Positions 43,955 through 64,000 of a stretch of DNA of 64,000 nucleotides are shown here, in pieces (position 1 is the first letter of the stretch; each line of letters opens with the position of its first letter). A model generated the notes under the pieces. It saw nothing but the letters and a program-made list of their open reading frames with translations. It ran no database searches and was not told the DNA's origin. This stretch comes from a virus: IMG/VR virus record IMGVR_UViG_3300047157_000138, positions 1 through 64,000 of that record; one strand, 5' to 3'. Made by a program: the position numbers and the translations under genes.

Positions 43955-46900
43955 ATGTCAAATCTACTGAAAAAAGCATCAATAATTACTACACCCACCG
44001 CCTATGATGACGGTAGAATTTTAAGTGTTAAGCCTAGCGAAAATTTATATGGCCCTGAACTTGTAACCAACGGAGATTTTAGTAATGGAACTACAGGGTG
44101 GAGTAGTCCAGATTATAATTCTACGTTGTCAATAGTAAATGGACAAATGAAAATTGTAAGCACCCTGTCCTTAGGTAGGGTATCACAAGCAATAACAACT
44201 GAAGTAGGTAAAAAGTATTTAATAAGTGCAACTACTACCAATATAGATAGTAGTACTGGTACTCAAATTAAGGTTTCTAATGCAGCTAATTTAGATGGTG
44301 CTACTTATAGTTCAGAATTTAATGCAACTACAAACCCTTTAACTATTACGCATAGATTTATAGCAACTGCAACAACAACTTATATAGGAAGTTCGCAAGG
44401 CTCAAGCGTTGGACAATCTGCTTTATTAGACAATGTTTCAGTAGTAGAAGATTTAAGTGGAGATTTTGACTTTTCAAGAGGTAGTGCTGCGACAAGAGTT
44501 AATGCACAAGGTTTAGTAGAAAACGTACAGATACTATCAAGTGAATTAGCACAGAACGGAAACTTTAGTGAAATAGGTTCAGAAGAAGTATCTAACGGAA
44601 ATTTTAGTCAAGAGGGTAGTGAGTTAGTTACAAATGGAGATTTTAATAACGGTAGTACTGGTTGGGCAGGTGATGATGCAACTTTAGATGTAAGCAATAA
44701 TACTGGGAAAGTAGTAGTAATATCTAATAGTGTAGCTGGTATAAAAACAAACGGGGTAAATAGCTTTATTCAAGGTAAACAATATAAATTAACTTTTGAT
44801 ATTGTTAGTGCAACTGGCGGGTTAGTCAGTGGTACTATAAAAGAATATTCTAATTCAAATATTGTAGGTTCTTGGAATGGGATAGGCAGCTATACTATTT
44901 ATTTTACATACCAAAGTTCATCATCGCAATTAAGATGGTTAAGTTCATCAAGCGTTGGGGATATATTAGAAATAGACAACGTATCAGTAAAAGAAGTCGG
45001 TCAAAATTGGACGTTTGGAACTGGGTGGAATATGGGAGATAGCAAAGCAACTGTTACAAATTCATCTACTTCAAGTATTTATCAAGATGTTTTGAATACT
45101 TCAAAATCATATAAAGTTACGTTTGAAATAACAGAAATAACAAGTGGTGGGTTAAGAATTGGAATAGGTCAAAATTTTAGTGATTATTTTACACAAGTTG
45201 GAACTTATACTTATTATGGACAATCATCCCTTGATACTCTTCTTAGAATAAATCCATCAAGTGGAACAAACGCTTCAATAGACAACGTATCAGTAAAAGA
45301 AGTAGGGCAAGATTGGGGCTTTACAAGTATTAAACTTATAGGAGCCAATACCTTTAAAAATACTGGTACTAATGGTAAACTTCAACAATCATATGCAAGT
45401 ATTGTTGGTGCTAAATATAGACTTTCCTTTACTATAAATAGCGGAAATTGGAATGTGGTTGCTTCAACAGTTAATAATACTGCTGGAATTATTGAACAAA
45501 CTGGAACAACATCAAATTCTGGAACGATTGAGTTTATAGCTGCTACAACAACAACATACATACTTTTATATAATATAGGTGCATCTGGTACAGAAGCAAG
45601 TATAACAAATATATCATTATTGCAAGTAACAGATGATACAGACTTACCAAGAATAAACTACGAGGGTTTCAGTTATCAAGATGTATTGGGGAGTGAACTT
45701 ATTACTAATGGAGATTTTGCAGTAGACGGCAGTTGGGTTAAAGGCACAGGTTGGACTATAAGCGGTGGAAGTGCAAACGGCAGTAGCACAACTAGCGATT
45801 TATATCAAGAAAATGTAGTTGTAGCTGGTAAAAAATATAAAGTTACATACACTATTTCTAATTACGTTAGTGGCTCTGTAAGGGTTGAATTGCCAAATAA
45901 TTCTTCCGCCGGAACAGAAAGGTCTGCAAATGGTACTTATACAGAAACAATTTTATCTGGAGGTACACTCGTTTTATTTGATGCAAGAACATCTTTTACT
46001 GGCTCAATAGACAACGTGTCAGTTAAAGAAATAACTGGTCAAGAAGTAGTGCCTAATAGTGGATGTGGAAGCTGGTTATTTGAACCACAGAGTACTAATT
46101 TAATAACTTATTCAATCGAATTAACAAATAGTAGTTGGGTAAAGACAGGTGTCTGGAACTGGCATCTGCTCCAAGTGTAACATCTAATTATTCTATTTCT
46201 CCAGATGGAACACAAAACGCAGACAGAGTTATTTTTAATTTAAACGGAGGTTCTGCGAATGCAGATGTTTCTCAAGTTTCTGCAACTCTTGGTTCAGTAT
46301 CAAGTGCAAGTTATACTAATTCAGTTTACATAAAATCAAATACTGCAAATGATTATGATTTAGTTATCACTAAACCAAGTGGTGGTCACGTATGTACTAA
46401 AACCATTACTACTACAATGGCAAAGATTTGATACTACTGATACGAAGCGTAACTAATATAAGTATTAGAATTAGATTGAGAGGAGATGAATCAACATCTG
46501 ATTTTGCAGATGTTTCTATTTGGGGGGTGCACAATTAGAAGAAGGCGATTACCCTACATCGTATATTCCTACATCTGGAGGTACAGTAACGAGGGCGGAG
46601 GATACTTGTAAACGCTGGTAATGACCAAGTATTTAATTCAACAGAGGGAGTATTGTATGCGGAGATAAGTGCCTTTGCGGATAATTTTGCAAAATAGATA
46701 TATAAGTATTTGTGATGGAACTTTTGATAATGCGACATATATTATGGTGATGCAAGCAAATAATTTCCGCCCGTTTTAGAAGTGGTGGGGGAAGTTGTTA
46801 GCAATATGTTTTTCGCAGTTTCAAATATAACGGCATTAAATAAAGTAGCTATAAGTTGGAAATTAAATGATTTAAATTTTTTGTTAATGGTGTTGAAGCA

Positions 46901-47059
46901 GAGGATTAAATACAAGTGGTGTATTATCACCTACGGGTTTAAATACATTAGGTTTTCAGCAGACGAGGAGGAATGCCATTCTACGGAAAAACAAGAAATT
47001 TAAAAGTTTACAACACCGCATTAACAGACGCAGAATTAATCGCATTAACAACAATTTAA
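43955..47059 (+). CDS. Adhesin-like tail protein with repeated jelly-roll modules and a LamG-like C-terminus (3' part broken)
   Basis: Open for 741 residues, then continued in shifted frames to 47059, ~1030 residues in all. At least four carbohydrate-binding-type modules each begin with [15 protein letters not shown]-like sequence and end with IDNVSVKE(V). A linker [11 protein letters not shown] leads to a further beta domain ([13 protein letters not shown]...YTNSVYIKS), then [17 protein letters not shown] and a concanavalin/LamG-like end ([17 protein letters not shown]). These modules usually bind sugars, so a receptor-binding or capsule-binding role is likely. Breaks occur only after ~46170, matching an indel-rich stretch. 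Confidence 0.7.
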
Positions 47060-47069
47060 AAAAATAATT

Positions 47070-47433
47070 ATGAATATTTACAAAACAGTATTTGATACTG
47101 AAGAACAAGGAAAAGAAGTTTTAATCGAAAAAGGTGTATGGGAAGAAGTAATCAGACGAAAATGGCGTTACATCTATGCAATATATCAACGGAACAAAAT
47201 CAGTAGTTGTTATTGGTAAAATAGTAGATGTACCAGCGGCTTATGATAAAAAAGGTAGGGTTATAAAACCAGCTATTTATTACCCAGGCCGGGCATACGA
47301 TATAATGACAACAGATACATTAGATTTTGGAGATAAAGAAGTATATCCGGGAAATACATCTGCACATCAGTTTTATGGTTATCCACGCGGAGCGGAAGTA
47401 CCCAAAGAAGATATAGCGGAAGAAGAAGAATAA
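47070..47433 (+). CDS. Small protein after the adhesin (one frame break)
   Basis: Starts MNIYKTVFDTEEQGKEVLIE. A shift near 47160 joins it to SMQYINGTKSVVVIGKIVDV...YPRGAEVPKEDIAEEEE. About 120 residues, beta-rich with an acidic tail. Similar short proteins follow fibre genes in marine phages. Function unknown. Confidence 0.5.
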
Positions 47434-47463
47434 GTCTCCGTTGTAATAAATAAGACATATAAT

Positions 47464-47493
47464 TGTAGCTTTTACAAATTATATGTGATTATA
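47464..47493 (+). promoter_or_regulatory. Late-type promoter of the chaperonin-lysis-packaging block
   Basis: TGTAGCTTTT and TGTGATTATA with a 15-base spacer. It lies immediately upstream of the GroEL-like coding sequence. Confidence 0.7.
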
Positions 47494-47554
47494 AATAACT
47501 AAAGATGGTGTAACTGTAGCGGAATTATCCGTATTATTAGATCCTGTTGAAAAC

Positions 47555-48883
47555 ATGGGAGCATCATTAGTTAAGCAAGCTGCTAGAAGAACGGTTGCTG
47601 AGGCTGGAGATGGAACAACAACCTCTACGGTATTAGCACATGCAATATTAAAGGAGTTTGCTAAATCACCTATGAAGTTTACTAGTAGGGAAAAAAGAGA
47701 TGCAATAAACAGCATTGTAGATAAAACTTTAAAGCATTTAGAAAAGCAAGCTAAACCGGTTAATGGGGATATGATAGATGAAGTTGCTACAATATCAACT
47801 AACAACGATGCAGAATTAGGTAAATTAATTGCTGATGCTTATAGAGCTGTAGATCTGACAGGAGTTGTTATGATGGAAACAGCCCAAGACGGTAATACGA
47901 GCATCGAAATAGTTGAAGGTGTGCAATACGAAAAAGGATTTACAAATAATCATTTTGTAACTAACCACGCAAGTAATACAGCAGAGTTAAGTAACCCTAA
48001 AATATTGTTAGTAGATTCAGCTGTAGATACTATTAGACAAATACAAACCATACTAGAGTATGTTATAAAGAATAACCTACCCTTACTTATAGTCGGTGAT
48101 GTTGACGCTAAAGTTGCAGCAGCACTTGCAATGAATAAAAATAAAGGCTCTATAAAAGTCAATATAATTCCAGCTCCCACACATGGAGTAAATAGAAAAG
48201 AAATATTTGACGATTTAGCTTTGCTTACAGGAGCTACTGTAATAAGTGAAAACTTAGGTGATGATTTAGACCTTATTGATTTATCATGTTTAGGTACTTG
48301 CGTAAAAGCCGTATCTACATTTAAAGATACTGTTTTTCAAATAGCTGATGAACAATCAGAAGATATTAAACTAATTATTGAAAGCATAAAAGAACAATTG
48401 CTTATAGAGAGCAATCCCAACAAAGTAGTTAAGCTTGAAAAAAGATTAGCTATGCTAGCTGCAAAACTTGCAATAGTAAAAGTTGGAGGTAATTCTGAGG
48501 TTGAATTAAATGAAAAGAAAGATAGAGTAGAAGATGCAATATGCGCAACTAAAGCTGCTATAAAAGAAGGTGTGGTTGCCGGTGGCGGAGTTGCACTAAT
48601 TAATGCAATCCGAAGTATAAAACCAAAGTCATCTAGCGAAGAGCTAGTTATTGAAGCTTTGTATTATCCTTGCAAAACAATTATGAAAAATGCAGGATTA
48701 GAATATGAGCCCATAAATAAAAAAGACTTTGGGGTTAATGTTGAGACTGGAAAAACAGTAAATATGTTTAAAGCAGGTATTATAGATCCTGTATTAGTTA
48801 CCAAGTCGGCATTAAAGAATGCTGCCTCAGTTGCTTCGACTATTTTGTCTACCAACTGTGTTATGTCTAACGTAAGAGGATAA
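47555..48883 (+). CDS. groEL: GroEL-like chaperonin, apparently lacking its N-terminus
   Basis: 442 residues from the first ATG. The same frame is open back to 47495 and encodes ITKDGVTVAELSVLLDPVEN, which is GroEL sequence including the D52 equivalent, but no start codon precedes it. Present: AGDGTTTSTVLAHAIL (ATP site), apical domain (YEKGFTNNHFVTN, LLIVGDV, GATVISENLG), RVEDAICATKAA with the catalytic D398 equivalent, and EGVVAGGGVALINAI. Missing: the first ~50-65 residues with the TLGPKGRN phosphate loop, and the C-terminal GGM tail. Folds proteins in a double ring with GroES, the next gene. Either the 5' end was lost in assembly or the phage makes a shortened chaperonin. Confidence 0.9.
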   Translation: MGASLVKQAARRTVAEAGDGTTTSTVLAHAILKEFAKSPMKFTSREKRDAINSIVDKTLKHLEKQAKPVNGDMIDEVATISTNNDAELGKLIADAYRAVDLTGVVMMETAQDGNTSIEIVEGVQYEKGFTNNHFVTNHASNTAELSNPKILLVDSAVDTIRQIQTILEYVIKNNLPLLIVGDVDAKVAAALAMNKNKGSIKVNIIPAPTHGVNRKEIFDDLALLTGATVISENLGDDLDLIDLSCLGTCVKAVSTFKDTVFQIADEQSEDIKLIIESIKEQLLIESNPNKVVKLEKRLAMLAAKLAIVKVGGNSEVELNEKKDRVEDAICATKAAIKEGVVAGGGVALINAIRSIKPKSSSEELVIEALYYPCKTIMKNAGLEYEPINKKDFGVNVETGKTVNMFKAGIIDPVLVTKSALKNAASVASTILSTNCVMSNVRG

Positions 48884-48884
48884 T

Positions 48885-49145
48885 ATGAACGCAATAGGTA
48901 GAAACATAATAATAAAAAAATTAAAAGAAGGTGTTACTAAAACTAAAGGGGGTTTACTCCTTGCTGAAACGCACCGTGAGGATATAAGATACGTAGAAGC
49001 CACTGTGGTGTCTACAGGGTCTGAATGTGCGGGAATAAACAAAGATGATGTTATATACTATGATAGGCACGCTGGCCATAAGATAGAACTAGATAAAGAA
49101 ACCTATCACGTTATTAAAGCACAAGATGTAGTATTTGTTTTATGA
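48885..49145 (+). CDS. groES: GroES-like co-chaperonin
   Basis: 86 residues, close to the bacterial length of ~95. Signature parts: IGRNIIIKKL at the start, mobile-loop region GVTKTKGGLLLAETHRED with the hydrophobic GGLLL that would grip GroEL, VSTGSECAGINKDDVIYYDR, and the closing ETYHVIKAQDVVFVL. It starts 1 base after the GroEL stop and overlaps the next gene by 4 bases. Together they form a phage-encoded chaperonin pair, presumably for folding the capsid or the giant virion proteins. Confidence 0.9.
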   Translation: MNAIGRNIIIKKLKEGVTKTKGGLLLAETHREDIRYVEATVVSTGSECAGINKDDVIYYDRHAGHKIELDKETYHVIKAQDVVFVL

Positions 49146-49588
49146 GAAAGTTAACAGGTCAAGAATTAAAAGAAATAGGACTGTTAAAACATTATAGAGT
49201 AATACGAAGATGGGCTTGCAAAAAAACAGGTTTAACCGATGCTGATCTAGAACTTTTAATATATTTCGATTGTTTAGGTAAGTTTACAAGGAAAGACTTT
49301 GAAGATGGTATACTTATTTACTCTTGGGATAATAGGAGGTGGAATAGGCTGCTTAAAGAAGGCTGGATAGTCAAATGGAGGGGATACAACGGAGCTGATA
49401 AAACTTATAGTATATACGAAATCAGTTTTAGAACAAAAAATATAATACAACAGATTTATAGGATAATGCTCGGCAAAGAAGATATACCAACTTCTAAAAG
49501 ACGTAATCCAGCAATGAAACGAATTTCTTACAGTGATAAAACTTTAGCCACTGCTATAGAAAAAATTAACAAAGATAAAACAAGATAA
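49142..49588 (+). CDS. Hypothetical protein, possibly winged-helix
   Basis: 148 residues, basic. LTDADLELLIYFDCLGKFTR, then DNRRWNRLLKEGWIVKWRGY, and a strand pair (DKTYSIYEIS) resemble a winged-helix DNA-binding domain of MarR type. C-terminal tail basic. Starts inside the last codons of GroES. A regulator of late genes is conceivable but unproven. Confidence 0.5.
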   Translation: MRKLTGQELKEIGLLKHYRVIRRWACKKTGLTDADLELLIYFDCLGKFTRKDFEDGILIYSWDNRRWNRLLKEGWIVKWRGYNGADKTYSIYEISFRTKNIIQQIYRIMLGKEDIPTSKRRNPAMKRISYSDKTLATAIEKINKDKTR

Positions 49589-49590
49589 TT

Positions 49591-49923
49591 ATGTCAGGAA
49601 TAACGTCAGCGGTTGGAGCAATGGGAAGTTTTTTTGCAGATAACCCAGCAATTAAAGCCATACAACAGGCTCAAAAAAGAACGGAAGCTCAACCAGCAAG
49701 TCAAACAGCCGGAGTAGCTGGAGTCGCTCCTGTGTCGCCAGCGCCAGCAACAGATGCAAGCGCGTTAGAAGCTAGAATAGCCGCTTTGGAATCGGGGAAC
49801 AGCTCGTCCGCACCATCTTCTATGGCTCCTCAAGCTATGGCTGTTGGCGAAAATATTTACGGTTCTCAAGAAGCAAGAAATAGATCTATTGATCCTAACA
49901 TTTTTAACAGAAGATTTAATTAA
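49591..49923 (+). CDS. Small Ala/Pro/Ser-rich protein
   Basis: 110 residues with a low-complexity middle (QTAGVAGVAPVSPAPATDAS) and a short coiled segment (ALEARIAALESGNSSS). Probably a flexible virion or linker protein. It starts 2 bases after the previous stop. Function unknown. Confidence 0.5.
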   Translation: MSGITSAVGAMGSFFADNPAIKAIQQAQKRTEAQPASQTAGVAGVAPVSPAPATDASALEARIAALESGNSSSAPSSMAPQAMAVGENIYGSQEARNRSIDPNIFNRRFN

Positions 49924-49931
49924 TAAACGAT

Positions 49932-50156
49932 ATGGAATATACAAAAAACACAAATCCTAGCCCCCCGGGTAATAGCCCTAAGGGAGTAGGTGAAAGCGCT
50001 TTATGGGACGGACCCTTAAGTCAAATGGGAAGACCTCACGGAAAAGGATCTTCATCAGGAATAAAAGGAATGCAAGTACTAAAGTATCCTAGTAGCTACG
50101 AGTCTAAGCCAATCACAGAGTGTGCTAAGAAAGGGCGATACAATGAATCTTACTAA
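49932..50156 (+). CDS. Small Gly/Ser/Pro-rich protein
   Basis: 74 residues (NPSPPGNSPKGVGESALWDG...), probably disordered. It overlaps the endolysin start. Function unknown. Confidence 0.45.
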   Translation: MEYTKNTNPSPPGNSPKGVGESALWDGPLSQMGRPHGKGSSSGIKGMQVLKYPSSYESKPITECAKKGRYNESY

Positions 50157-50529
50157 AAATTTTAACAAGTCGGAGTTTGAATGCAAGTGTGGGTGTGAAA
50201 TGCCGGAAGAGGTATTATCTGAAATAACTAAACTTGCTGGCAATCTACAAGTCATTAGAGACTTTATAAGAAAGCCTATGACTTTAACAAATGCTTACAG
50301 GTGTCCAAAGCACAACAAAGAAGTAGGAGGCGTACCTAACTCTCAGCATATATTAGGTAAAGCTTGTGATATTCAAGTAAATGATATGTCCCCTAAAGAA
50401 GTGTTTGATACTATAGCAACCTTAATCGAACACGGTCATATATCCGAAGGCGGATTAGGATTGTATAATACTTTCGTGCATTACGACATAAGAAAAACTA
50501 AAGCCCGTTGGGATAAAACATCAGAATAA
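50143..50529 (+). CDS. Endolysin, peptidase M15 family (D-Ala-D-Ala/L-Ala-D-Glu type)
   Basis: 128 residues from the ATG at 50143. A GTG at 50122 would add 7 residues but overlaps the upstream gene more. Zinc ligands of the M15_3 family: H69 in PNSQHILG, D76 in ACDIQ, and H113 in FVHYDIR. A CKCGC cluster lies near the N-terminus. It cuts peptide bridges in peptidoglycan to release progeny. The holin gene follows 0.8 kb downstream in the same operon. Confidence 0.9.
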   Translation: MNLTKNFNKSEFECKCGCEMPEEVLSEITKLAGNLQVIRDFIRKPMTLTNAYRCPKHNKEVGGVPNSQHILGKACDIQVNDMSPKEVFDTIATLIEHGHISEGGLGLYNTFVHYDIRKTKARWDKTSE

Positions 50530-50840
50530 TGGCAACAAAAAAAGCAGCACCAAAAAAACGAGGTAAAGCTCCTTCCCGTAAAAAATCAGAGGGCAACTAC
50601 GCAAAAGTAAAAAAGGGAAAAGGTACAGGTAAGAAAGCTGGTGGCGGAATGACCGCTAAAGGAGTTGCCAAGTACCGTAAAGATAATCCTGGCAGCAAAT
50701 TAAAAACTGCCGTGACTACACCTCCTTCAAAACTTAAGAAAGGTAGCAAGGCTGCTAAAAGACGTAAATCATTTTGCGCGAGATCCAAAGGTTGGACGAG
50801 TGAAAGAGGATTAGCTGCACGAAGAAAATGGAACTGCTAA
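50529..50840 (+). CDS. Small Lys-rich basic protein
   Basis: 103 residues, ~35% Lys/Arg. It ends KRRKSFCARSKGWTSERGLA ARRKWNC, with the CARSKGW...SERG pattern shared in spirit with other tiny basic genes in marine phages. It overlaps the endolysin stop by one base. It may bind nucleic acid. Function unknown. Confidence 0.5.
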   Translation: MATKKAAPKKRGKAPSRKKSEGNYAKVKKGKGTGKKAGGGMTAKGVAKYRKDNPGSKLKTAVTTPPSKLKKGSKAAKRRKSFCARSKGWTSERGLAARRKWNC

Positions 50841-50841
50841 T

Positions 50842-50976
50842 ATGAAAAATAAAAAAAATTGCGGTTGTCTTAGCAAATATATGAAGCCTTCTATTAAAGG
50901 TGTAAAAGGCTCAAAAGGAAGAAAAGGCTGGGACGCAAAACCAGTATTTAGAATAACCAATCCCGGTAGAAGATGA
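50842..50976 (+). CDS. Tiny basic protein
   Basis: 44 residues (MKNKKNCGCLSKYMKPSIKG...NPGRR), with a CGC motif. It overlaps the next gene by 4 bases (ATGA). Function unknown. Confidence 0.5.
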   Translation: MKNKKNCGCLSKYMKPSIKGVKGSKGRKGWDAKPVFRITNPGRR

Positions 50977-51095
50977 AAAACAAAACAAATAAAGACGCTT
51001 GTTATTACAAGATAAAGGGAAGCTATAAGGTATTTCCATCTGCGTACGCTAGCGGTGCAATTGCAAAGTGTCGTAAGAATAAAGGGAAAAAGTAA
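50973..51095 (+). CDS. Tiny basic protein
   Basis: 40 residues (MKNKTNKDACYYKIKGSYKV...CRKNKGKK). The core YYKIKGSYKVFPSAYASGAI and the ending resemble the conserved 'small basic, SAYASG' phage ORFs. It overlaps both neighbours. Function unknown. Confidence 0.5.
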   Translation: MKNKTNKDACYYKIKGSYKVFPSAYASGAIAKCRKNKGKK

Positions 51096-51352
51096 TGGCT
51101 GTTCGTAAAACAAAAAAAGGAGCGGCACTAAAAAGGTGGTTTAAAGAAAAGTGGACCGACGAAAAAGGTAATGTTTGTGGATCTACAAAAAACAAAAAAA
51201 CCAAAAAGTGCAGACCCTCTAAAAGGGTAAGTTCTAAAACCCCAAAGACCTGGAAAGAAATGTCTCCAGCTGAAAAGAAAAAAGCTGTAGCGGAAAAGAA
51301 AAGAACAGGTATGGGTAAAAGAACTTCCTCCCTAAAAAGAAAAAAGAAATGA
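51095..51352 (+). CDS. Small Lys-rich protein of the 'KRWFKEKW' type
   Basis: 85 residues, very basic (KKGAALKRWFKEKWTDEKGN, CGSTKNKKTKKCRPSKRVSS). A Cys pair (VCGST..KKC) lies in the middle. This pattern (K-W-F-K-E-x-W-x-D) recurs as small genes in marine and algal-virus-associated phages. Function unknown. It overlaps the holin start. Confidence 0.5.
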   Translation: MAVRKTKKGAALKRWFKEKWTDEKGNVCGSTKNKKTKKCRPSKRVSSKTPKTWKEMSPAEKKKAVAEKKRTGMGKRTSSLKRKKK

Positions 51353-51831
51353 GTGACAATCCTAATTTAAGAAAAAACGGTGGGGACGGAACGTTTGTGG
51401 GCAATGCTCTAAGAACTATAGCCGGCGTTACGCCAGATATACTTAACATAGTCGGTACTCTTACCGGGGCGGAAGGTTTTAATAAACTAAGTGACGCAAT
51501 AAGAGGTAGTTCAAGTATATCTCCAGAAGATAAAGATGTATTACTAAAAGAGCTGGAAAAAGACATTGTAGTAGAACAAGAAATATCTAAACGTGAAGTT
51601 GAAATAAGTAAGCGCTGGGAGTATGATATGAAATATGGAAGTTGGCTAGCGAGAAATATAAGACCTTTAGTAGTTGCTAACTTTACATTCCTAATAGATA
51701 TAGTAATTATAACTTCGCAATGGGGCAGACCTTTGGCTGAAGCATACTTACCTCTTTTAATGACAATGGGAGTTACCGTAATAGGTGGTTACTTTACACT
51801 AAGAGAGTACGGAAAAACAAAACAAAAATAA
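51349..51831 (+). CDS. Holin (3-TM type)
   Basis: 160 residues. An N-terminal soluble, helical part is followed by EKDIVVEQEISKREVEISKR and three hydrophobic stretches from ~residue 108 (RNIRPLVVANFTFLIDIVII, YLPLLMTMGVTVIGGYFTL). This is the layout of the 3TM holin family that opens the inner membrane to let the endolysin through. It is near the endolysin in a compact lysis cluster. Confidence 0.75.
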   Translation: MSDNPNLRKNGGDGTFVGNALRTIAGVTPDILNIVGTLTGAEGFNKLSDAIRGSSSISPEDKDVLLKELEKDIVVEQEISKREVEISKRWEYDMKYGSWLARNIRPLVVANFTFLIDIVIITSQWGRPLAEAYLPLLMTMGVTVIGGYFTLREYGKTKQK

Positions 51832-51835
51832 AATT

Positions 51836-51994
51836 ATGCCTTACAAAAAAAAGCCTACAGCTAAAACAATAAAACAATCCCGAGCTAGAAGAAACCAGAC
51901 CCTTGTCCCAAGCATGAGCAGAAGAGCTTACGACAAGCAGTTTTCTACTACAAAAGGGCATACTAATAATGCAAAAAAAAGAAAAAAATCATGA
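51836..51994 (+). CDS. Small basic protein
   Basis: 52 residues (MPYKKKPTAKTIKQSRARRN...NNAKKRKKS), Lys/Arg-rich. It overlaps the next start (ATGA). Function unknown. Confidence 0.5.
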   Translation: MPYKKKPTAKTIKQSRARRNQTLVPSMSRRAYDKQFSTTKGHTNNAKKRKKS

Positions 51995-52212
51995 ACAAGT
52001 ACGACAAAAAAATGATGCATGAAAGAGAACTAATCTACGATGCAAAAGGACAACTTCACCGAGCTGACAAAAAATATAAAGCTGGTGATAAAAAAGCAAA
52101 ACAAACAATGATTCACGACCGTGAATTAATATACGATGCTAAAGGAGCTATTCACCGAACTGATATGGCTAAAAAGGGAGGACACCCTATCCATAAGCAC
52201 ATGAGAAAATAA
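51991..52212 (+). CDS. Protein of two tandem ~35-residue repeats
   Basis: 73 residues. Two near-identical units: HERELIYDAKGQLHRADKKY and HDRELIYDAKGAIHRTDMAK, each preceded by a Lys-rich spacer, with a His-rich tail (HPIHKHMRK). Internal duplication is clear. Function unknown. Confidence 0.55.
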   Translation: MNKYDKKMMHERELIYDAKGQLHRADKKYKAGDKKAKQTMIHDRELIYDAKGAIHRTDMAKKGGHPIHKHMRK

Positions 52213-52274
52213 CAGATAGGACTGTACAAACCTAAATAAACATAAACATAACCATAAACAAAAACAAAAACAAA

Positions 52275-52658
52275 ATGGCAAAATTCATTAAATTTAACGT
52301 AAAAAATTCAGCAGCTGTACAGCCACTAGGACCAACAGAAGGAATCTTAGTAAATGTTGAAGACATCACAAAAGTAACTGCAACTGGAGCAACAGGAGCG
52401 AATGCTAAAACCTTAGTAATAGGTTTAACTGGAAGAAATTCTGAGGCTGGTTACAAAACTTTAACTTTAGCTGTATCTACTAGTATTTCTGCTGCAGTTA
52501 ATCCAACATTAACATCAGGTAATGCTAACCCGTTAGTATCTGCGGTAAGATCCGCAATGACTGCTAACCCAGGAGGAGTAGTTGCTACGGTTAATGTAGG
52601 AGTTGACAATGCTGCTGCACCTAAGCAAATGTATTTTAGAACTGCAACATTTGCATAA
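52275..52658 (+). CDS. Conserved small beta-rich protein
   Basis: 127 residues, Ala/Thr/Val-rich, mostly beta (ILVNVEDITKVTATGATGAN, KTLVIGLTGRNSEAGY). It resembles small virion-associated proteins of marine phages. An A/C-rich leader and a strong hairpin downstream (52669-52702) suggest an abundant transcript. Function unknown. Confidence 0.5.
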   Translation: MAKFIKFNVKNSAAVQPLGPTEGILVNVEDITKVTATGATGANAKTLVIGLTGRNSEAGYKTLTLAVSTSISAAVNPTLTSGNANPLVSAVRSAMTANPGGVVATVNVGVDNAAAPKQMYFRTATFA

Positions 52659-52668
52659 TAAATTAAAT

Positions 52669-52702
52669 ATAGTCTTGCGGGATTAATATCTCGCGAGGCT
52701 AT
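52669..52702 (+). terminator. Strong hairpin after the 127-residue gene
   Basis: 15-bp stem, 52669-52683 with 52688-52702, with three G-U pairs and the loop TAAT, GC-rich in the middle and followed by an AT stretch without a clean T-run. It probably acts as a terminator or mRNA 3'-end stabiliser. Confidence 0.65.
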
Positions 52703-52752
52703 TATTAATAATATAAATATTGCTTATAAAATTAACAATTAAATCTAATCAA

Positions 52753-53094
52753 ATGAAAAATTTATTTATCACATTATTATTGCTGGCATCAAGTCAATTA
52801 TTTGCGCAACAAGAATTAAGTGGGCTATGGGAATGCGAAGATTCTTCTTATTTAACTACAATAGTGGCTTCAGAATACGCAGTTTTGGATGTGTTTAATA
52901 CAAGCTTTGAAGAGCACAGAGTAATACCAGAAAAAATAATAAATTATAAAAACAACAAATTAATAACTAACCTAAAAAATACTCACAACGGATATTCGGT
53001 AAGTATTGAATACTCATTACAAAATGATGATACCATTTTATGTACTTACACTGGAGACCTTACGGGAGATTTTATATTAACTAGATTAAAATAA
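52753..53094 (+). CDS. Secreted beta-barrel-like protein
   Basis: 113 residues starting MKNLFITLLLLASSQLFAQQ, a typical signal peptide of Bacteroidetes with cleavage after FAQ. The mature part (ELSGLWECEDSSYLTTIVAS ... YTGDLTGDFILTRL) is beta-rich and lipocalin-like, with single Cys residues in WECE and ILCTY. An inner start is chosen because an upstream in-frame ATG (52720) would bury the signal peptide. It could act in the periplasm, for example in superinfection exclusion, but that is speculation. Confidence 0.6.
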   Translation: MKNLFITLLLLASSQLFAQQELSGLWECEDSSYLTTIVASEYAVLDVFNTSFEEHRVIPEKIINYKNNKLITNLKNTHNGYSVSIEYSLQNDDTILCTYTGDLTGDFILTRLK

Positions 53095-53100
53095 AAAGCT

Positions 53101-53547
53101 ATGGCATATATGCAAAAACCCGGTAGAGCTCCGTTAGAAAACAAAAACTTTGAAGCTTTAACCAATGGTACATCTTTAAAAAATGATAATGACAAGAAAG
53201 ATCCAAAAACGGGTAAAAAGAAAACAGTAAAATCTTATAACGTAAAAACCGGTAAAGAATCTCTTAAAAAAGTTACAGCTAAGTCTGGAGACGCTGAATT
53301 ATCTAAAGAACTAGGAGGCACTTTAACTTTTGAAAGTGCAGATCAAAGCAAAAAATCTTTAACAAAAAAGAAGTCGGACCCAAAAACAGGGGGAGGAGTA
53401 AATAAAAGTACTACAGCTACGAGGGCTACTTATGGCGCTCTTCCTAAAGGATTTAAAGGTAGAGCAAAAGATAAAAATAACAAAATAGTAGACTTCTCAA
53501 CTAGTAATAACGATTCAAGAAGAAAAGAAAAGTTTAGATTATATTAA
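53101..53547 (+). CDS. Lys-rich disordered protein
   Basis: 148 residues, ~27% Lys/Arg, low complexity (KKDPKTGKKKTVKSYNVKTG). No folded domain visible. Function unknown. Confidence 0.5.
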   Translation: MAYMQKPGRAPLENKNFEALTNGTSLKNDNDKKDPKTGKKKTVKSYNVKTGKESLKKVTAKSGDAELSKELGGTLTFESADQSKKSLTKKKSDPKTGGGVNKSTTATRATYGALPKGFKGRAKDKNNKIVDFSTSNNDSRRKEKFRLY

Positions 53548-53575
53548 GAATTATTAACAATTAAATTAAATTAAA

Positions 53576-53845
53576 ATGAGTAAAGTAAAAGAAATGAAAT
53601 CAGAAAATCTATCAATCAGTAAGGAACAACTAGAAAAAGTACAAGTGTTGCAAAGTGATTTGCAAAGGTATTGTGCTCATATTGGAGGACTAGAGGTTGA
53701 AAAAGCAAAAGCAATTTATCAGATAAACATGCTTGAAAAAGACATGGAGGATTTTAAAAAATCCATAGAAGATGAATATGGTCCTATTAATATTAATTTA
53801 ACTGATGGTACTTACGACAAAGTAGAGCCCACAGACAAAGAATAG
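53576..53845 (+). CDS. Small coiled-coil protein
   Basis: 89 residues with a predicted helix over residues ~10-70 (QLEKVQVLQSDLQRYCAHIG, EKAKAIYQINMLEKDMEDFK) and a short beta tail. A chaperone-like or scaffold role is possible. Function unknown. Confidence 0.55.
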   Translation: MSKVKEMKSENLSISKEQLEKVQVLQSDLQRYCAHIGGLEVEKAKAIYQINMLEKDMEDFKKSIEDEYGPININLTDGTYDKVEPTDKE

Positions 53846-53849
53846 GGTT

Positions 53850-54077
53850 ATGAGCAATATTATAAGAAAGATAAGCATAGGTGCCGACTACAAGAACGAA
53901 GCAATGCATTACTCTGTTAAGCAGACAGTTTACGGTGGGCATGAAATTTCTCATATAATATTTGAAGAGTCAGATAATTCTTATAATATATTTATAAAAA
54001 AAGACAACGAGGTAATGCCATGGAAGAAGTTTAATTCTAACATGGCTATATCCGTTGAGTATGACTTAGAGTACTAA
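53850..54077 (+). CDS. Hypothetical protein
   Basis: 75 residues, beta-rich (RKISIGADYKNEAMHYSVKQ...WKKFNSNMAISVEYDLEY). It overlaps the next gene by one base. Function unknown. Confidence 0.5.
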   Translation: MSNIIRKISIGADYKNEAMHYSVKQTVYGGHEISHIIFEESDNSYNIFIKKDNEVMPWKKFNSNMAISVEYDLEY

Positions 54078-54613
54078 TGAGAAGTATATACGATTTTATC
54101 ATAAAGCCTGTAGGGCAAAGGTATGATAATCAGGTTAAGGTTGGAGGAGTGGACCTTATAACCAACACTTCTATAGAAAGTTTTAAACACGTTAATAATA
54201 TAGCCGAGGTTGTAGAAACCCCCGCAGCATTTGCGACACCAATAAAAAAAGGTGATCTAATAGTCGTTCATCATAATGTGTTTAGAGTTTTTTATGATAT
54301 GAAAGGGCTTAAAAAAAATAGTAGATCGTTTCTTAAGGACGGGCTTTTTATGTGTGCAATAGATCAAATATATTTGTACAAGAATAAAAAGAATTGGAAA
54401 TCATTCGGCGATAGATGCTTTGTTGCTCCGGTCAAAAATAAAGACCCTTTTAGCAGCGATAAAACAGCTAGCCTTATTGGTATATTAAAATACGGTAATA
54501 GTTCCTTAGAAGCTCTTAAAATCACTCCAGGAGATATAATTGGTTTTACACACCAGATGGTGAATGGGAATTTTTATAGACGGAGAGCGATTATATTGTA
54601 TGAAATCAAATGA
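54077..54613 (+). CDS. Tandem GroES-like protein (two co-chaperonin domains)
   Basis: 178 residues with two GroES-like halves. Half 1 (~1-95): YDFIIKPVGQRYDNQVKVGG, a loop, NIAEVVETPAAFATPIKKGD, LIVVHHNVFRVF, and the closing CAIDQIYLYK. Half 2 (~107-178): WKSFGDRCFVAPVKNKDP, SLIGILKYGNSSLEALKITP, GDIIGFTHQ and the closing RRAIILYEIK. The order 'xDRxxVxPV - loop - G.v...G - v..GD.I.f - ...D.i' is GroES-like in both. Confidence rests on pattern. It is distinct from the 86-residue GroES at 48885. It sits directly upstream of the terminase genes. Confidence 0.6.
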   Translation: MRSIYDFIIKPVGQRYDNQVKVGGVDLITNTSIESFKHVNNIAEVVETPAAFATPIKKGDLIVVHHNVFRVFYDMKGLKKNSRSFLKDGLFMCAIDQIYLYKNKKNWKSFGDRCFVAPVKNKDPFSSDKTASLIGILKYGNSSLEALKITPGDIIGFTHQMVNGNFYRRRAIILYEIK

Positions 54614-54627
54614 TATTGTAATTAAGT

Positions 54628-54904
54628 ATGAGCAACAAGGAAACGAAATTGAGTATAATCCGAGCTGGGCGAAAAGCAGTTGAAGAATTAATAAAGGTAG
54701 CGCAAGAAAAGATTGTTGACTCAGGAGATGATATATCAGCTGACAGACTTAAAAACGCTGCCGCTACAAAAAAGTTAGCAATATTTGATGCTTTTGAAAT
54801 TCTAACAAGAATACAAGAAGAAGAAGATATGTTAAACTGAATCAAGCCTAAAGAAAGCAAAAGAAAAAACTTTTAAAGGCTTTGCTGAAGGAAGATCTAA
54901 GTAA
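54628..54904 (+). CDS. Small helical protein before the large terminase (possible small terminase; one frame break)
   Basis: Open for 70 residues (NKETKLSIIRAGRKAVEELI...ILTRIQEEEDMLN). A one-base shift at ~54838 adds ESSLKKAKEKTFKGFAEGRS K, ending at 54904, for a total of ~92 residues, helical. Its position directly in front of the large terminase with stop/start overlap suggests the small subunit, but no signature confirms it. Confidence 0.45.
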
Positions 54905-57120
54905 TGTATCAGCAAACTTTATATAAAATACTAGATAACTATATAAACCTAAGCTGTTTTAAAAAGAACTAATAGGTATGCTAAGTGGGAGTATGGTTAC
55001 AATGAAGAACATGACGTAGTTATAATAAGTAAAACAGGTAAGATCGGTGAAATATACGAGATACAAGGTTTGAAAATAGCTTTACCAAAAGAAGAAAAAC
55101 CTCATGTTTTTGACGGTAATACCTGGAAATACTCAGAATATCCTAAAGAGTTAAGCAAAATAAAATCTGTATTTGACTGGGAAGAATATCCCTAGTTTTA
55201 AAGAAAAATGGTACGGTTATATAGATGATGAATTTAAAAGACGCGAAGAAGGCTTTTGGTTTATTAACAAAGGTAAGCCTACTTACATTACTGGTACTCA
55301 CTATATGTACTTGCAGTGGAGTAAAATTGACGTTGGCCACCGGACTTTCGAGAATCGAACAGATTATTCTACATATTCTGGGAAGCTTGTAAAGCCGATA
55401 GAAGAAGCTATGGTATGTGCTACCTTAAAAATAGACGGAGTGGATTCTCATTTATGTCGTCAGGTGAAACAGTCAACGCTGCTACAATATCGACAGACTC
55501 TAGATTTGGTATATTATCTAAATCAGGTGCAGATGCCAAAAAATGTTCACTGATAAAGTTGTACCAATATCAGTTAACTACCCGTTCTTTTTTAAACCAA
55601 TACAAGATGGTATGGACCGGCCAAAAACGGAACTGGCTTATAGAGTACCAGCTTCTAAATTTACAAGAAAAAAGCTGGAAATAACGAAAAGCTTAAAGAA
55701 ATGATCCGGACTTGATACAACTATTGACTGGAAAAACACAGGTGATAACTCTTATGATGGTGAAAAGCTAAAGCTACTTGTTCACGATGAATCAGGTAAA
55801 TGGGAAAAGCCTACTAACATACTTAACAACTGGAGAGTAACAAAAACATGTTTACGATTAGGTAGTAGGATAATAGGAAAGTGTATGATGGGTTCAACAT
55901 CAAACTCTTTAGACAAAGGAGGTGAAAACTTTAAAAAACTATACTACGGCTCAGATGTAGCAAAAAGAAACGCTAATGGTCAAACAAGCTCAGGCTTGTA
56001 TTCTTTGTTTATACCTATGGAATGGAACTATGAAGGTTTTATTGATAAATGGTCTATCCTGTATTTGACACTCCAACGAAAGAAACATTAGATCCTCATT
56101 TGGTAATATTAACATCAAGGTGTTATAGAACACTGGGAAAATGAAGTAGAAGGTTTAAAAGCAAGATCAAGACGGGCTTTAAACGAATATTATAGGCAGT
56201 TTCCAAGAACAGAGGAACACGCTTTTAGAGATGAAGCTAAAGAATCTTTATTTAATCTAACTAAAATATATCAGCAAATAGATTACAATGAAGACTTAAA
56301 CAACAAGTCTGCTATGTAACAAGGGAAGCTTTCAGTGGGAAAACGGAGTTAAAGATACTAGAGTAATGTTTTATCCTAATAAAGATGGTAGGTTTTTTAT
56401 ATACTTGGGTTCCTGCCTGTAGAACAACAAAATAAGTAATAATAAAAAATGGTATTAAATATCCTGGTAATGAACACATGGGAGCTTTTGGTTGTGACAG
56501 CTATGATATATCAGCGAACTGTTGGTGGTAGCGGATCTAACGGAGCGCTTCATGGATTAACAAAGTTTTCAATGGAAGATGCACCGCCTAATCATTTTTT
56601 TTAGAATATATAGCTAGACCACAAACAGCAGAAATATTTTTTGAAGACGTGCTAATGGCTTGTGTTTTTTATGGTATGCCTATATTAGCAGAAAATAACA
56701 AACCAAGATTTTATATTATTTTAAAAGCGAAGAGGTTACAGAGGTTACTCAATGAACAGACCAGATAAACATATGGAATAAATTATCTATACTGAAAGAG
56801 AAATAGGTGGAATACCTAATTCAAGCGAAGATATAAAACAAGCACACGCAGCTGCTATAGAAACATATATAAAGAACATGTTGGTATAGGAGAAAAGAAA
56901 GATGGATATGGAGATATGTATTTTCAAAGAACCTTAAATGATTGGGCTAAGTTTAATATTAATAATAGAACAAAGCATGATGCATCTATAAGTTCTGGGT
57001 TAGCATTAATGGCTTGTAATAAAAATAGATATAATCCTAAAGGTATAAAAAAATTAAAGTCTTATAGATTTAGGTTTTAAAAAATATAATAACGAGGGAA
57101 CTATTTCAAAAATAATATAA
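54904..57120 (+). CDS. terL: Terminase large subunit (frame broken by indels)
   Basis: In shifting frames the whole chain can be followed: VFDWEEYP, FINKGKPTYITGTHYMYLQW, KNRRSGFSFMSSGE (ATPase P-loop region in the RRSGFS variant form), FKPIQDGMDRPKTELAYRVP, KLLVHDESGKW (Walker B with catalytic Glu), MGSTSNSLDKGGENFKKLYY, EHWENEVEGLKARSRRALNE, GAFGCDSYDISGTVGG-like (nuclease-domain Asp), and HDASISSGLAMACNKNRYNP. The intact product would be ~735 residues. It packages the genome into proheads by ATP hydrolysis and cuts the concatemer. At least 15 breaks, all small indels. The start is an ATG at 54904 overlapping the previous stop. Confidence 0.85.
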
Positions 57121-57123
57121 TAA

Positions 57124-59534
57124 ATGAATATAAGTACTAATACTAATAGCTCTTTTCCTAGATCAGGTTGTAAGTGATGCAGAAAAAGCAACGTGGGAAT
57201 ATGGGCTTCAAGTTAGGTAGAGCTATTGAGAAGGAATGGTTCAATTAAGGTGGAAGGGTTCAAAGATACGCTACAAGCTTGGAATAATTTTCATAATTTA
57301 AGATTATATGCAAGAGGAGAACAATCGTACAAAAGTATAAAGATGAGTTAGTCTATTAATGGCGATTTGTCTTATTTAAACTTAGACTGGAAACCAGTTC
57401 CTATATTTCTAAATTTGTAGATATAGTAGTAAATGGTATGTCACAAAAGCAGTATGACTTAACTTCTTATGCACAAGATCCAGAATCTTTAAAGAAAAAA
57501 GAACTGATTTCGCAGAAGCTTTGTTGTTTGATATGCTTCAAAAAATTAACAAGCTGAAGCTTCTCAACTAGGTATAGATTTAAGTAACACTACAATATCC
57601 ACCAGACAATTTACCAGAGTCTAAAGAAGAATTAGATCTTCACATGCAAATGAACTTTACAAACAAGCTATTGAAATTGCAGAAGAAGAAGCTATTAATA
57701 ATGTTTTAGCAAAAAACAAATTTGATTTAAACGAAATCAAGCGTAAATAAGATTTAACAGTATTAGGAATAGGAGCTTGTAAAACAATTTTAATAAAGCT
57801 GAAGGAATAACAGTAGATTATGTTGATCCTGCTTATATGGTTTATTCTTATACTGAAGATCCTAATTTTGAAGACATATATTACGTAGGCGAAGTAAAAT
57901 CTATAACTATACCTGAGCTTAAAAAAACAATTTCCTAATATATCAGAAGAAGAATTAGAAAGAATACAAAAAATGCCTGGTAATCCAATATATAACAGGT
58001 TTGTAATTATGATTAAAATACTGTTCAAGTATTGTATTTTGAATACAAAACATATCATAATCAAGTTTTTAAAATAAAGAAAACAGATCAAGGTCTTAGA
58101 AAAAGCAATTGAAAAAGCCTGACAGTTTAATCCGCCACCTAATGATAACTTTGAAAGAGTTGTCAAGATCTATTGAAGTATTATACACTGGAGCTAAATA
58201 ATTAGGTAATAATACATGTTAGAATGGAAATGTCAGAAAATATGACTAGGCCTTATGCTGATACTACTAAAGTTAAAATGAGTTATTGTATATGTGCACC
58301 TAGAATGTATAAAGGTCGCATTGAATCATTAGTAAGTAAATAACTGGATTTGCTGATATGATACAGCTAACTCATTTAAAGCTACAACAAGTATTATCTA
58401 GAATGGTTCCTGATGGTGTTTTCTTAGATATGGATGGTTTAGCTGAAGTTGATTTAGGTAATGGAACAAACTACAATCCAGCTGAAGCTTTAAACATGTA
58501 TTTCCAAACAGGTTCTATAGTTGGTAGATCCCTTACTCAAGAAGGTGGTATGAATAGAGGTAAAGTTCCTATTCAGAATTAACTTCTTCATGGTCAAGCT
58601 AAAATTCAAATCTCTTAATAGGAACGTATCAATATTATTTACAAATGATACGCGACGTTACTGGATTAAACGAAGCTAGAGACGGTAGTATGCCAAATAA
58701 AGATTCATTAGTTGGTTTGCAAAAAATGGCAGCTAATGCTTCTAATGTTGCCACTAAGCACTATAATAGATTCAGTTGTTGTATATAGGTTTAAGAACTT
58801 GTGAAAATATAAGTTTAAAAACTAGCTGATATTATTAAATTTTCCTCTTAAATAGAAACGCTTTAATGAATAGTATATCTACTTTCAACGTAGAAACTTT
58901 AAAGGAAATAGAAAATTTAAATCTTCATGACTTTGGAATATATTTAGAAATGGAACCAGATGACGAAGAAAAAGCTGAATTAGCGGCTAATATAAATGCT
59001 TCATTGCAACAAGGCAGTATTGATATAGAAGATGCTATTGATATACGTGAAATTAAAAACCTTAAGCTGGCTAATCAAATGTTAAAGCTTAAGCGTAAGA
59101 AAAAGTTAGAAAGAGAACAAGCCGTAACTCAACAAAATATACAAGCCCAAGCGGCAGCGAACGCTGAAGCTTCTGAAAAAGCCGCAATGGCGGAAGTACA
59201 AAAACAACAAGCTCTTACATCTGAAAAAGTTGCTATTGAACAAGCTAAATCGCAATTTGAAATACAAAGAATGGAAAGAGAAGCTCAAATTAAAAAGCAG
59301 TTAATGGCAACTGAATTTGAGTATAATATGCAATTAGCTCAAGCTCAAATAGGAGCCACTAAACAAAAAGAAGCGGAAATAGAAGATCGTAAAGATAAAC
59401 GAGTAAAAATACAAGGCACTCAGCAAAGCGAACTTATACAACAAAGACAAACAGAAGGTATGCCTAAAAACTTTGAATCACAAGGCAATGATGTGATGGG
59501 GGGATTTGATTTATCTTCGTTTGACCCTTCTTAA
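57124..59534 (+). CDS. Portal protein (N-terminal two thirds broken by indels)
   Basis: Fragments in order: MNISTNTNSSFPR, EKATWEYGLQVGRAIEKEWF, NFHNLRLYARGEQS, YLNLDWKPVP and FVDIVVNGMSQKQYDLTSYA (typical of portals of Bacteroidetes podoviruses), FEDIYYVGEVKSITI, MVPDGVFLDMDGLAEVDLGN, and an intact 222-residue C-terminal helical/coiled-coil region (EQAVTQQNIQAQAAANAEAS). About 800 residues when repaired. It forms the dodecameric ring at the capsid vertex through which DNA passes, sitting between terminase and scaffold genes as expected. Confidence 0.8.
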
Positions 59535-63113: not shown

Positions 63114-63553
63114 AGAGGACTTTTATAGGCTCGGTACAGTAATATATAAAGACGAGCACAGAAGCTCAACTAGTGCAGCGAAACGAGCTTTTATACATAA
63201 ACACTACACCTTTAGTTGCACCTACAGAAACTGCATACCCAATATATTTGTATGAGGATAATCACAAATTGTATGTGTATCCTCAAGACTATTAGCATCG
63301 GATGTAACCATGTAAGTTATTTAAGAAAACCTTTGGATGTAATTTGGAATTTTACTAATTCCTTCAGGGCCAAAACTATTATCAGTATAACCCTACTAAT
63401 TCCACGTTGACTTTGAATTATCAAAAACAGAACAGACTAATATTATACTAAAAATATTACTTTACTCTGGTAGTTGTAATAAGAGACCCTTCAAATAATT
63501 AATGTAGCCTGCTCAACAAGTTCAACAAGAAGTTCAACGCTCAACATTATAAG
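63114..63553 (+). pseudogene. Second, indel-rich partial copy of the tail-connector gene
   Basis: Corresponds to 562-982 but lacks the first ~165 codons and has 18 extra bases in about ten places, so the frame is destroyed. Since the first copy is intact, this is almost certainly uncorrected sequence at the overlap, not a decayed gene. Confidence 0.85.
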
Positions 63554-63555
63554 AT

Positions 63556-64000
63556 ATGCCTATACCTAATGGAGGTTTAATAACCGAAACTAATGAACAA
63601 TATTACGCTGGTGCCCAGCGATTCTTATCTGATGGGAGCGGAAAAGTAACTACTACATTTAACACAGATTTAGTATTTTCTACTTCAAATACAGCGTTGC
63701 CAGAATATGCATTAAATAATTTTCAAATTTACACTAGTGCTAATAACGCTCCAGGAAGTTATACTGAGTACTCTGGAACTTATAACGTTGTAAATAACCA
63801 AATAACCTTTACATCAGCACCTGCCGCTAATACGTATATAGTAGTACAGTTGAAATCTTTAGACGGCGGTAACTTTGGCAACAAGCAAGCTATAGGAACA
63901 GCTGTTCAAGAAAATTATGGTAGTTATGGTTATACTTCTTTAAACAATATTATAAACGGATTTATAGCTACTTATGTAGGAGAACATAAATTAATACCAG
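63556..64000 (+). CDS. Partial second copy of the 403-residue virion gene
   Basis: The first 445 bases of the gene at 986-2197, identical to it and cut by the window end (148 codons). Confidence 0.9.
   Translation, partial: MPIPNGGLITETNEQYYAGAQRFLSDGSGKVTTTFNTDLVFSTSNTALPEYALNNFQIYTSANNAPGSYTEYSGTYNVVNNQITFTSAPAANTYIVVQLKSLDGGNFGNKQAIGTAVQENYGSYGYTSLNNIINGFIATYVGEHKLIP

Follow-up and report, generated by a model that had tools for sequence, protein, structure and literature searches.

Two GroES-like domains arranged head to tail in one chain are known from the Cpn20 proteins of plastids and of the apicoplast (Chlamydomonas CPN20 and CPN23, Arabidopsis, Plasmodium), which keep a mobile loop and a roof in both domains (PMC3542282). 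Plant and algal Cpn20 is accompanied by a single-domain Cpn10, and plastid lids either combine Cpn20 and Cpn10 to a total of seven domains or are tetramers in which one domain is left over (PMC5780408, PMC3542282). The Chlamydomonas Clp core is also reported to carry a CPN11/20/23 heterotetramer (PMC8889267). Phage T4 encodes gp31, a single-domain protein of the GroES fold that uses the host GroEL and folds the capsid protein gp23; its roof loops are absent and its mobile loops are longer, features that are believed to make room for the larger gp23 (PMC6318259). In the open-licence (non-subscription) literature that was searched, tandem GroES is described only for plastids (plants, algae) and for the apicoplast of the malaria parasite, and no paper was found that notes this architecture in phages.

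The window analysed here is a stretch of 64,000 nucleotides from an IMG/VR virus record of 65082 bases that belongs to a marine bacteriophage; all features given below lie on its + strand. It contains, as listed, an open reading frame with an ATG start at 54077–54613 that encodes 178 amino acids, which a preliminary description had read as a candidate co-chaperonin with two GroES-like domains. Relatives of the protein are encoded by 390 IMG/VR stretches, of which the nearest 80 were kept. Residues 1–157/158 of the reading frame are 82–96% identical to these relatives and the matches end there, whereas the translated length in the relatives is 201 amino acids (80/80). In a DNA alignment with three relatives, the window shows an insertion of 2 bases immediately past 54550 and is one base short near 54574. 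The true C-terminal end of the protein, ...YCMKSNDIVIKYEQQGNEIEYNPSWAKSS, is encoded in a different frame, at 54576–54683 with its stop codon at 54681–54683, and tblastn matched the piece 54576–54680 to residues 167–201 of an intact relative, L001. Judged from these alignments, residues 1–158 of the 178-residue reading frame are real protein (54077–54550, the in-frame part of a chain of about 201 residues), and residues 159–178 (54551–54613) are an artefact of an assembly frameshift. Domain 1 occupies 54077–54388 and domain 2, which spans the two small indels, 54401–54683. The "closing ILYE strand" of the preliminary description thus belongs to out-of-frame sequence and falls away, even though the two GroES-like halves stand; the true last strand of domain 2, LYCMKSNDIVIKYE, is more GroES-like than the out-of-frame version.

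The break in the reading frame coincides with a drop from near-identity to a sister contig at 54490. Tiles 47501 to 54490 of the window match sister contigs at 99.8–100% identity, tiles 54501–58501 only at 79–90% with numerous gaps, and identity is back at 100% from 59001. A second low-identity patch with numerous small indels lies at about 46200–47500 (compared with sister contigs L001 and L188). We infer from these comparisons that error-prone sequence from a related strain was used to fill both patches (46200–47500 and 54490–59000). The terminase and neighbouring genes also appear broken within 54490–59000, and other observations on either patch may likewise be artefacts. It is therefore highly improbable that the 178-residue reading is the true product, either as a shortened variant or as a decaying gene; the frame is open as listed, but its nearest relatives are all intact, and it breaks exactly where identity to the sister contig falls from ~100% to ~80% with gaps, in the patch in which the terminase is broken as well. 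Separately, the two ends of the window share 887 bp at 97.6% identity with gaps (562–1430 versus 63114–64000), which gives a unit genome of ~62.5 kb that is probably circular or terminally redundant.

Profile comparisons place the protein among GroES-like co-chaperonins. The window reading frame matches phrog_13932, annotated as co-chaperonin GroES, with E 6.7e-19, and residues 1–182 of intact L001 align to positions 1–197 of the 200 in that profile (E 6.8e-25). This family matched 40/40 diverse members over the full-length profile, and the single-domain family phrog_3188 matched 35/40, in the C-terminal half of the member shown. Pfam Cpn10 (PF00166) is found in the C-terminal half of the phi38:1 and Calle_2 homologues at 24.1 bits (curated cut-off 21.1 bits); Pfam and NCBIfam profiles gave no match for the window-type protein (window reading frame and L001). 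A phmmer search of PDB sequences with the 178-residue protein gave no match, and profile searches of PDB sequences gave weak matches to single-domain GroES only (best E 1.4 and 0.16) and no Cpn20 chain. When the halves were searched separately with hhalign against a combined GroES profile, in line with the check proposed in the preliminary description, the C-terminal half gave a strong match (95.9%) and the N-terminal half a weak one (48.6%), both in the expected register and both above the maximum of 5.7% reached by 150 column shuffles of each half. The C-terminal half also matched Bacteroidota GroES at 95.4%. An internal repeat was not detectable by hhalign of one half against the other (2.8%).

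For the N-terminal half the 48.6% was obtained with deeper profiles, shallow ones having given 2.6%; since the initial result was negative and the later match weak, we relied on structure for domain 1. AlphaFold2 modelling of intact L001 with 40 sequences gave a pLDDT of 80.6 and a pTM of 0.75. The best solved match to this model is chain R of 7EKQ (194 residues; E 1.5e-5 over 204 alignment columns; TM 0.52, rmsd 7.4, 12% identity in the structural alignment), followed to rank 35 by GroES/Cpn10 chains, gp31 included. The entry is titled CrClpP-S2c, and its chain R was taken as CPN20 or CPN23 because of its length; the likeness to plastid Cpn20 raised at the outset is thus borne out by the best full-length solved match. 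Because domain 1 was doubtful by sequence, it was also modelled alone (pLDDT 79.4): solved matches 1–25 are GroES/Cpn10 chains (best E 2.6e-3, TM ~0.5), and the next are alcohol and enoyl-thioester dehydrogenases/reductases, whose N-terminal domain is GroES-like. The GroES-like assignment of domain 1 is well supported, mainly by predicted structures with moderate TM-scores (~0.5), and the protein as a whole very probably has a two-domain GroES fold. In most Bacteroidota genomes sampled, ordinary GroES is accompanied by a second GroES-like protein of ~125 amino acids, whose roof region contains a long insertion. It was rejected as a source of either half of the phage protein, to which it is no more similar than ordinary GroES is (5.5% and 62.6%).

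Loop and roof lengths were read from alignments between matching anchors. The first mobile-loop-like segment (residues 12–42) carries the hydrophobic motif GGVDLI in the window; it measures 28–32 residues in tandem proteins versus 23 in the GroES of the Bacteroidota hosts, and G[GA][IVL] occurs in the domain 1 loop of 33/61 members, the window included. The second loop is 15–26 residues long (16 in L001) and mostly lacks a hydrophobic motif: G[GA]?[IVL] occurs in 11/61 members and is absent from the window, while the second loop of phi38:1 is longer and carries NGLRVI. In the L001 model, residues 126–129 of this loop fall below pLDDT 50. A loop this short, disordered in the model and usually without the motif, may leave domain 2 out of contact with GroEL. 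The roof segments comprise 7–9 residues in domain 1 and 4–11 in domain 2, in contrast to 17 in host GroES with its full roof hairpin. In domain 1, HHN (residues 65–67) is invariant (180/180 sequences) and SxE (residues 32–34) is conserved and nearly invariant; neither has a GroES counterpart, and together they possibly form a binding site.

The short roofs in both domains and the degenerate second loop set the phage protein apart from Cpn20, and its origin is probably independent of the plastid protein. Domain 1 resembles gp31 in its reduced roof and longer mobile loop, as far as can be read from sequence; domain 2 has a short roof likewise, but its loop is short. Both proteins are phage-encoded and share the GroES fold, although gp31 matches the tandem model by fold only (E 0.13–0.18). 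Bacterial GroES/Cpn10 (PF00166), including the single GroES of this phage, shares the fold but has one domain.

The tandem gene sits in a conserved neighbourhood. Directly upstream lies a small conserved gene (53850–54077, 75 amino acids), a homologue of which precedes the tandem gene in MW202828. Downstream, a second small conserved gene (54628–54840, frame-disturbed, homologous to a 94-amino-acid gene of MW202828) separates it from the terminase large subunit (54953–57041), which was located by tblastn with the TerL proteins of MW202828 and an elemo phage; indels in the patch have split it over several frames. The terminase was found at 256/258 tandem-gene loci (overlapping loci counted), and in annotated phages it follows the tandem gene directly or after one small gene.

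Kilobases away, in a different module, the window encodes a phage GroEL (47494–48883; Pfam Cpn60_TCP1, E 1.4e-42, and alignment to L001). The window copy lacks its first ~50 codons, ~160 bp of L001 being deleted at 47494–47498, at the edge of a patch. It is followed by a single-domain GroES of 86 amino acids (48885–49145; phrog_3188) with GGLLL in its mobile loop and a roof of about 8 residues. Pfam Cpn10 (47.4 bits, E 2e-12) confirmed this protein as the separate GroES beside which the tandem protein had been proposed as a second co-chaperonin. GroEL is present in 14/14 long records searched, and a separate single GroES above the Pfam cut-off in 13/13, among them phi38:1, where gp005 is GroEL and gp007 is Cpn10. 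The lineage hence has three genes of the chaperonin system, of which two encode caps.

This lineage consists of tailed phages, mostly of Bacteroidota. Annotated members of the family are Cellulophaga phages phi38:1, phi40:1 and Calle (Pervagoviridae), the Flavobacterium elemo phages and Maribacter phage Panino; their proteins show full-length homology to the window protein (28–41% identity) and the same architecture, which is broken in the window copy by assembly errors, and their genes have the same terminase-side position and the same company of GroEL and single GroES. RefSeq, GenBank and PHROGs label the tandem gene "co-chaperonin GroES" or "chaperonin cpn10", and the records of these phages use such names without noting two domains. 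A "chaperonin cpn10" is listed among the core proteins of Pervagoviridae (PMC8776804), and this is probably the tandem gene, since the terminase-linked gene of Calle bears that name; for Panino, GroEL and GroES are mentioned (PMC11590407). An exact-pattern search with the Panino protein gave no viral relatives. The suggestion that a double GroES domain is rarely described in phages agrees with the literature searched, but the protein is no one-off, as GroEL together with a pair of cap genes turns up repeatedly in the lineage. A cellular home for the tandem gene was considered and rejected: 18/18 matches in the genome collection lie on MAG contigs whose labels are mixed, and the best reading is that phage contigs were binned into MAGs. 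Lineage contigs in MAGs labelled Woesearchaeota, Aliivibrio, Maricaulis, Pseudomonadales and others are probable binning contamination.

The best overall explanation, to which we assign a probability of about 50%, is that the tandem protein is a Cpn20-like co-chaperonin of head-to-tail GroES-fold domains that forms a mixed seven-domain lid with the single GroES. That it acts as a co-chaperonin of GroEL, to which it would bind, is likely. In the proposed mechanism it would serve as a lid subunit on the phage GroEL, within a ring of seven GroES-like domains made up, for example, of three tandem chains and one single GroES. Because GroEL rings have seven sites, on which two-domain subunits alone would leave one domain or site over, and because the single GroES is a constant companion, a mixed seven-domain ring is the most economical model. 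The odds on such a ring of tandem protein and single GroES are about even, as GroES may merely accompany GroEL, next to which a single GroES is to be expected in any case; their co-occurrence is thus no proof of mixing. The short roofs and the one long loop suggest that the lid would be open-roofed as in T4 gp31, and perhaps roomier. Its clients would likely be virion proteins, given the position of the gene and the precedent of gp31. For the enlarged or mixed cap for a large capsid subunit that the preliminary description envisaged, the hints from sequence are indirect: the short roofs of all three phage GroES domains, and a first mobile loop that exceeds that of host GroES in length.

The chief competitor, rather unlikely in our estimate, is a homo-oligomer of the tandem protein, either a tetramer with one domain out or a trimer with one GroEL site free. 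This would coexist with a separate GroES heptamer, giving the phage two alternative lids for its own or the host GroEL. Cpn20 of Arabidopsis and Plasmodium forms mainly tetramers that function with GroEL alone, and six- and eight-domain concatamers also work (PMC3542282, PMC5780408); the separate modules of the two cap genes would fit as well. A symmetry mismatch nevertheless persists in such lids, which the single GroES (13/13) could remove. The unequal loops, long with the motif in domain 1 and short without it in domain 2, could alternatively reflect a cap in which seven chains form a ring through one domain and the others stack into a higher dome, which would make the chamber larger. This arrangement is improbable: the whole model fits the tandem plastid chain lengthwise, which agrees with side-by-side domains despite the rmsd of 7.4, and we know of no precedent for a stacked one-domain GroES cap.

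A different job for the GroES fold, in which the protein caps or scaffolds a partner other than GroEL, such as a ring of the ClpP type or an intermediate of terminase/portal assembly, is distinctly unlikely. It would account for the fixed position of the gene beside terminase and portal, for a best solved match that is a co-chaperonin bound to chloroplast ClpP (PMC8889267), and for the invariant HHN and SxE residues and the motif-free second loop. Against it, GroEL is encoded in every record searched and domain 1 retains a GroES-like loop, often with the GG-hydrophobic motif. Returning to the Cpn20-like reading, we propose tentatively, at somewhat less than even odds, that this lineage independently evolved a plastid-like, seven-domain, open-roofed lid of tandem and single subunits on its own GroEL, specialised for virion proteins.

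In annotation, "co-chaperonin GroES" labels in these phage genomes cover two different genes. For plastids, the fit of two-domain subunits to a GroEL ring of seven-fold symmetry is a matter of long debate. The phage set of GroEL, GroES and tandem GroES, which is compact and occurs in the cultured phages phi38:1, Calle, Panino and the elemo phages, would be a tractable system in which to test independently for mixed lids and for the reason that a phage maintains two caps. If the proposal is true, the mixed lid of these phages would be the first hetero-oligomeric lid of such a kind outside plastids.
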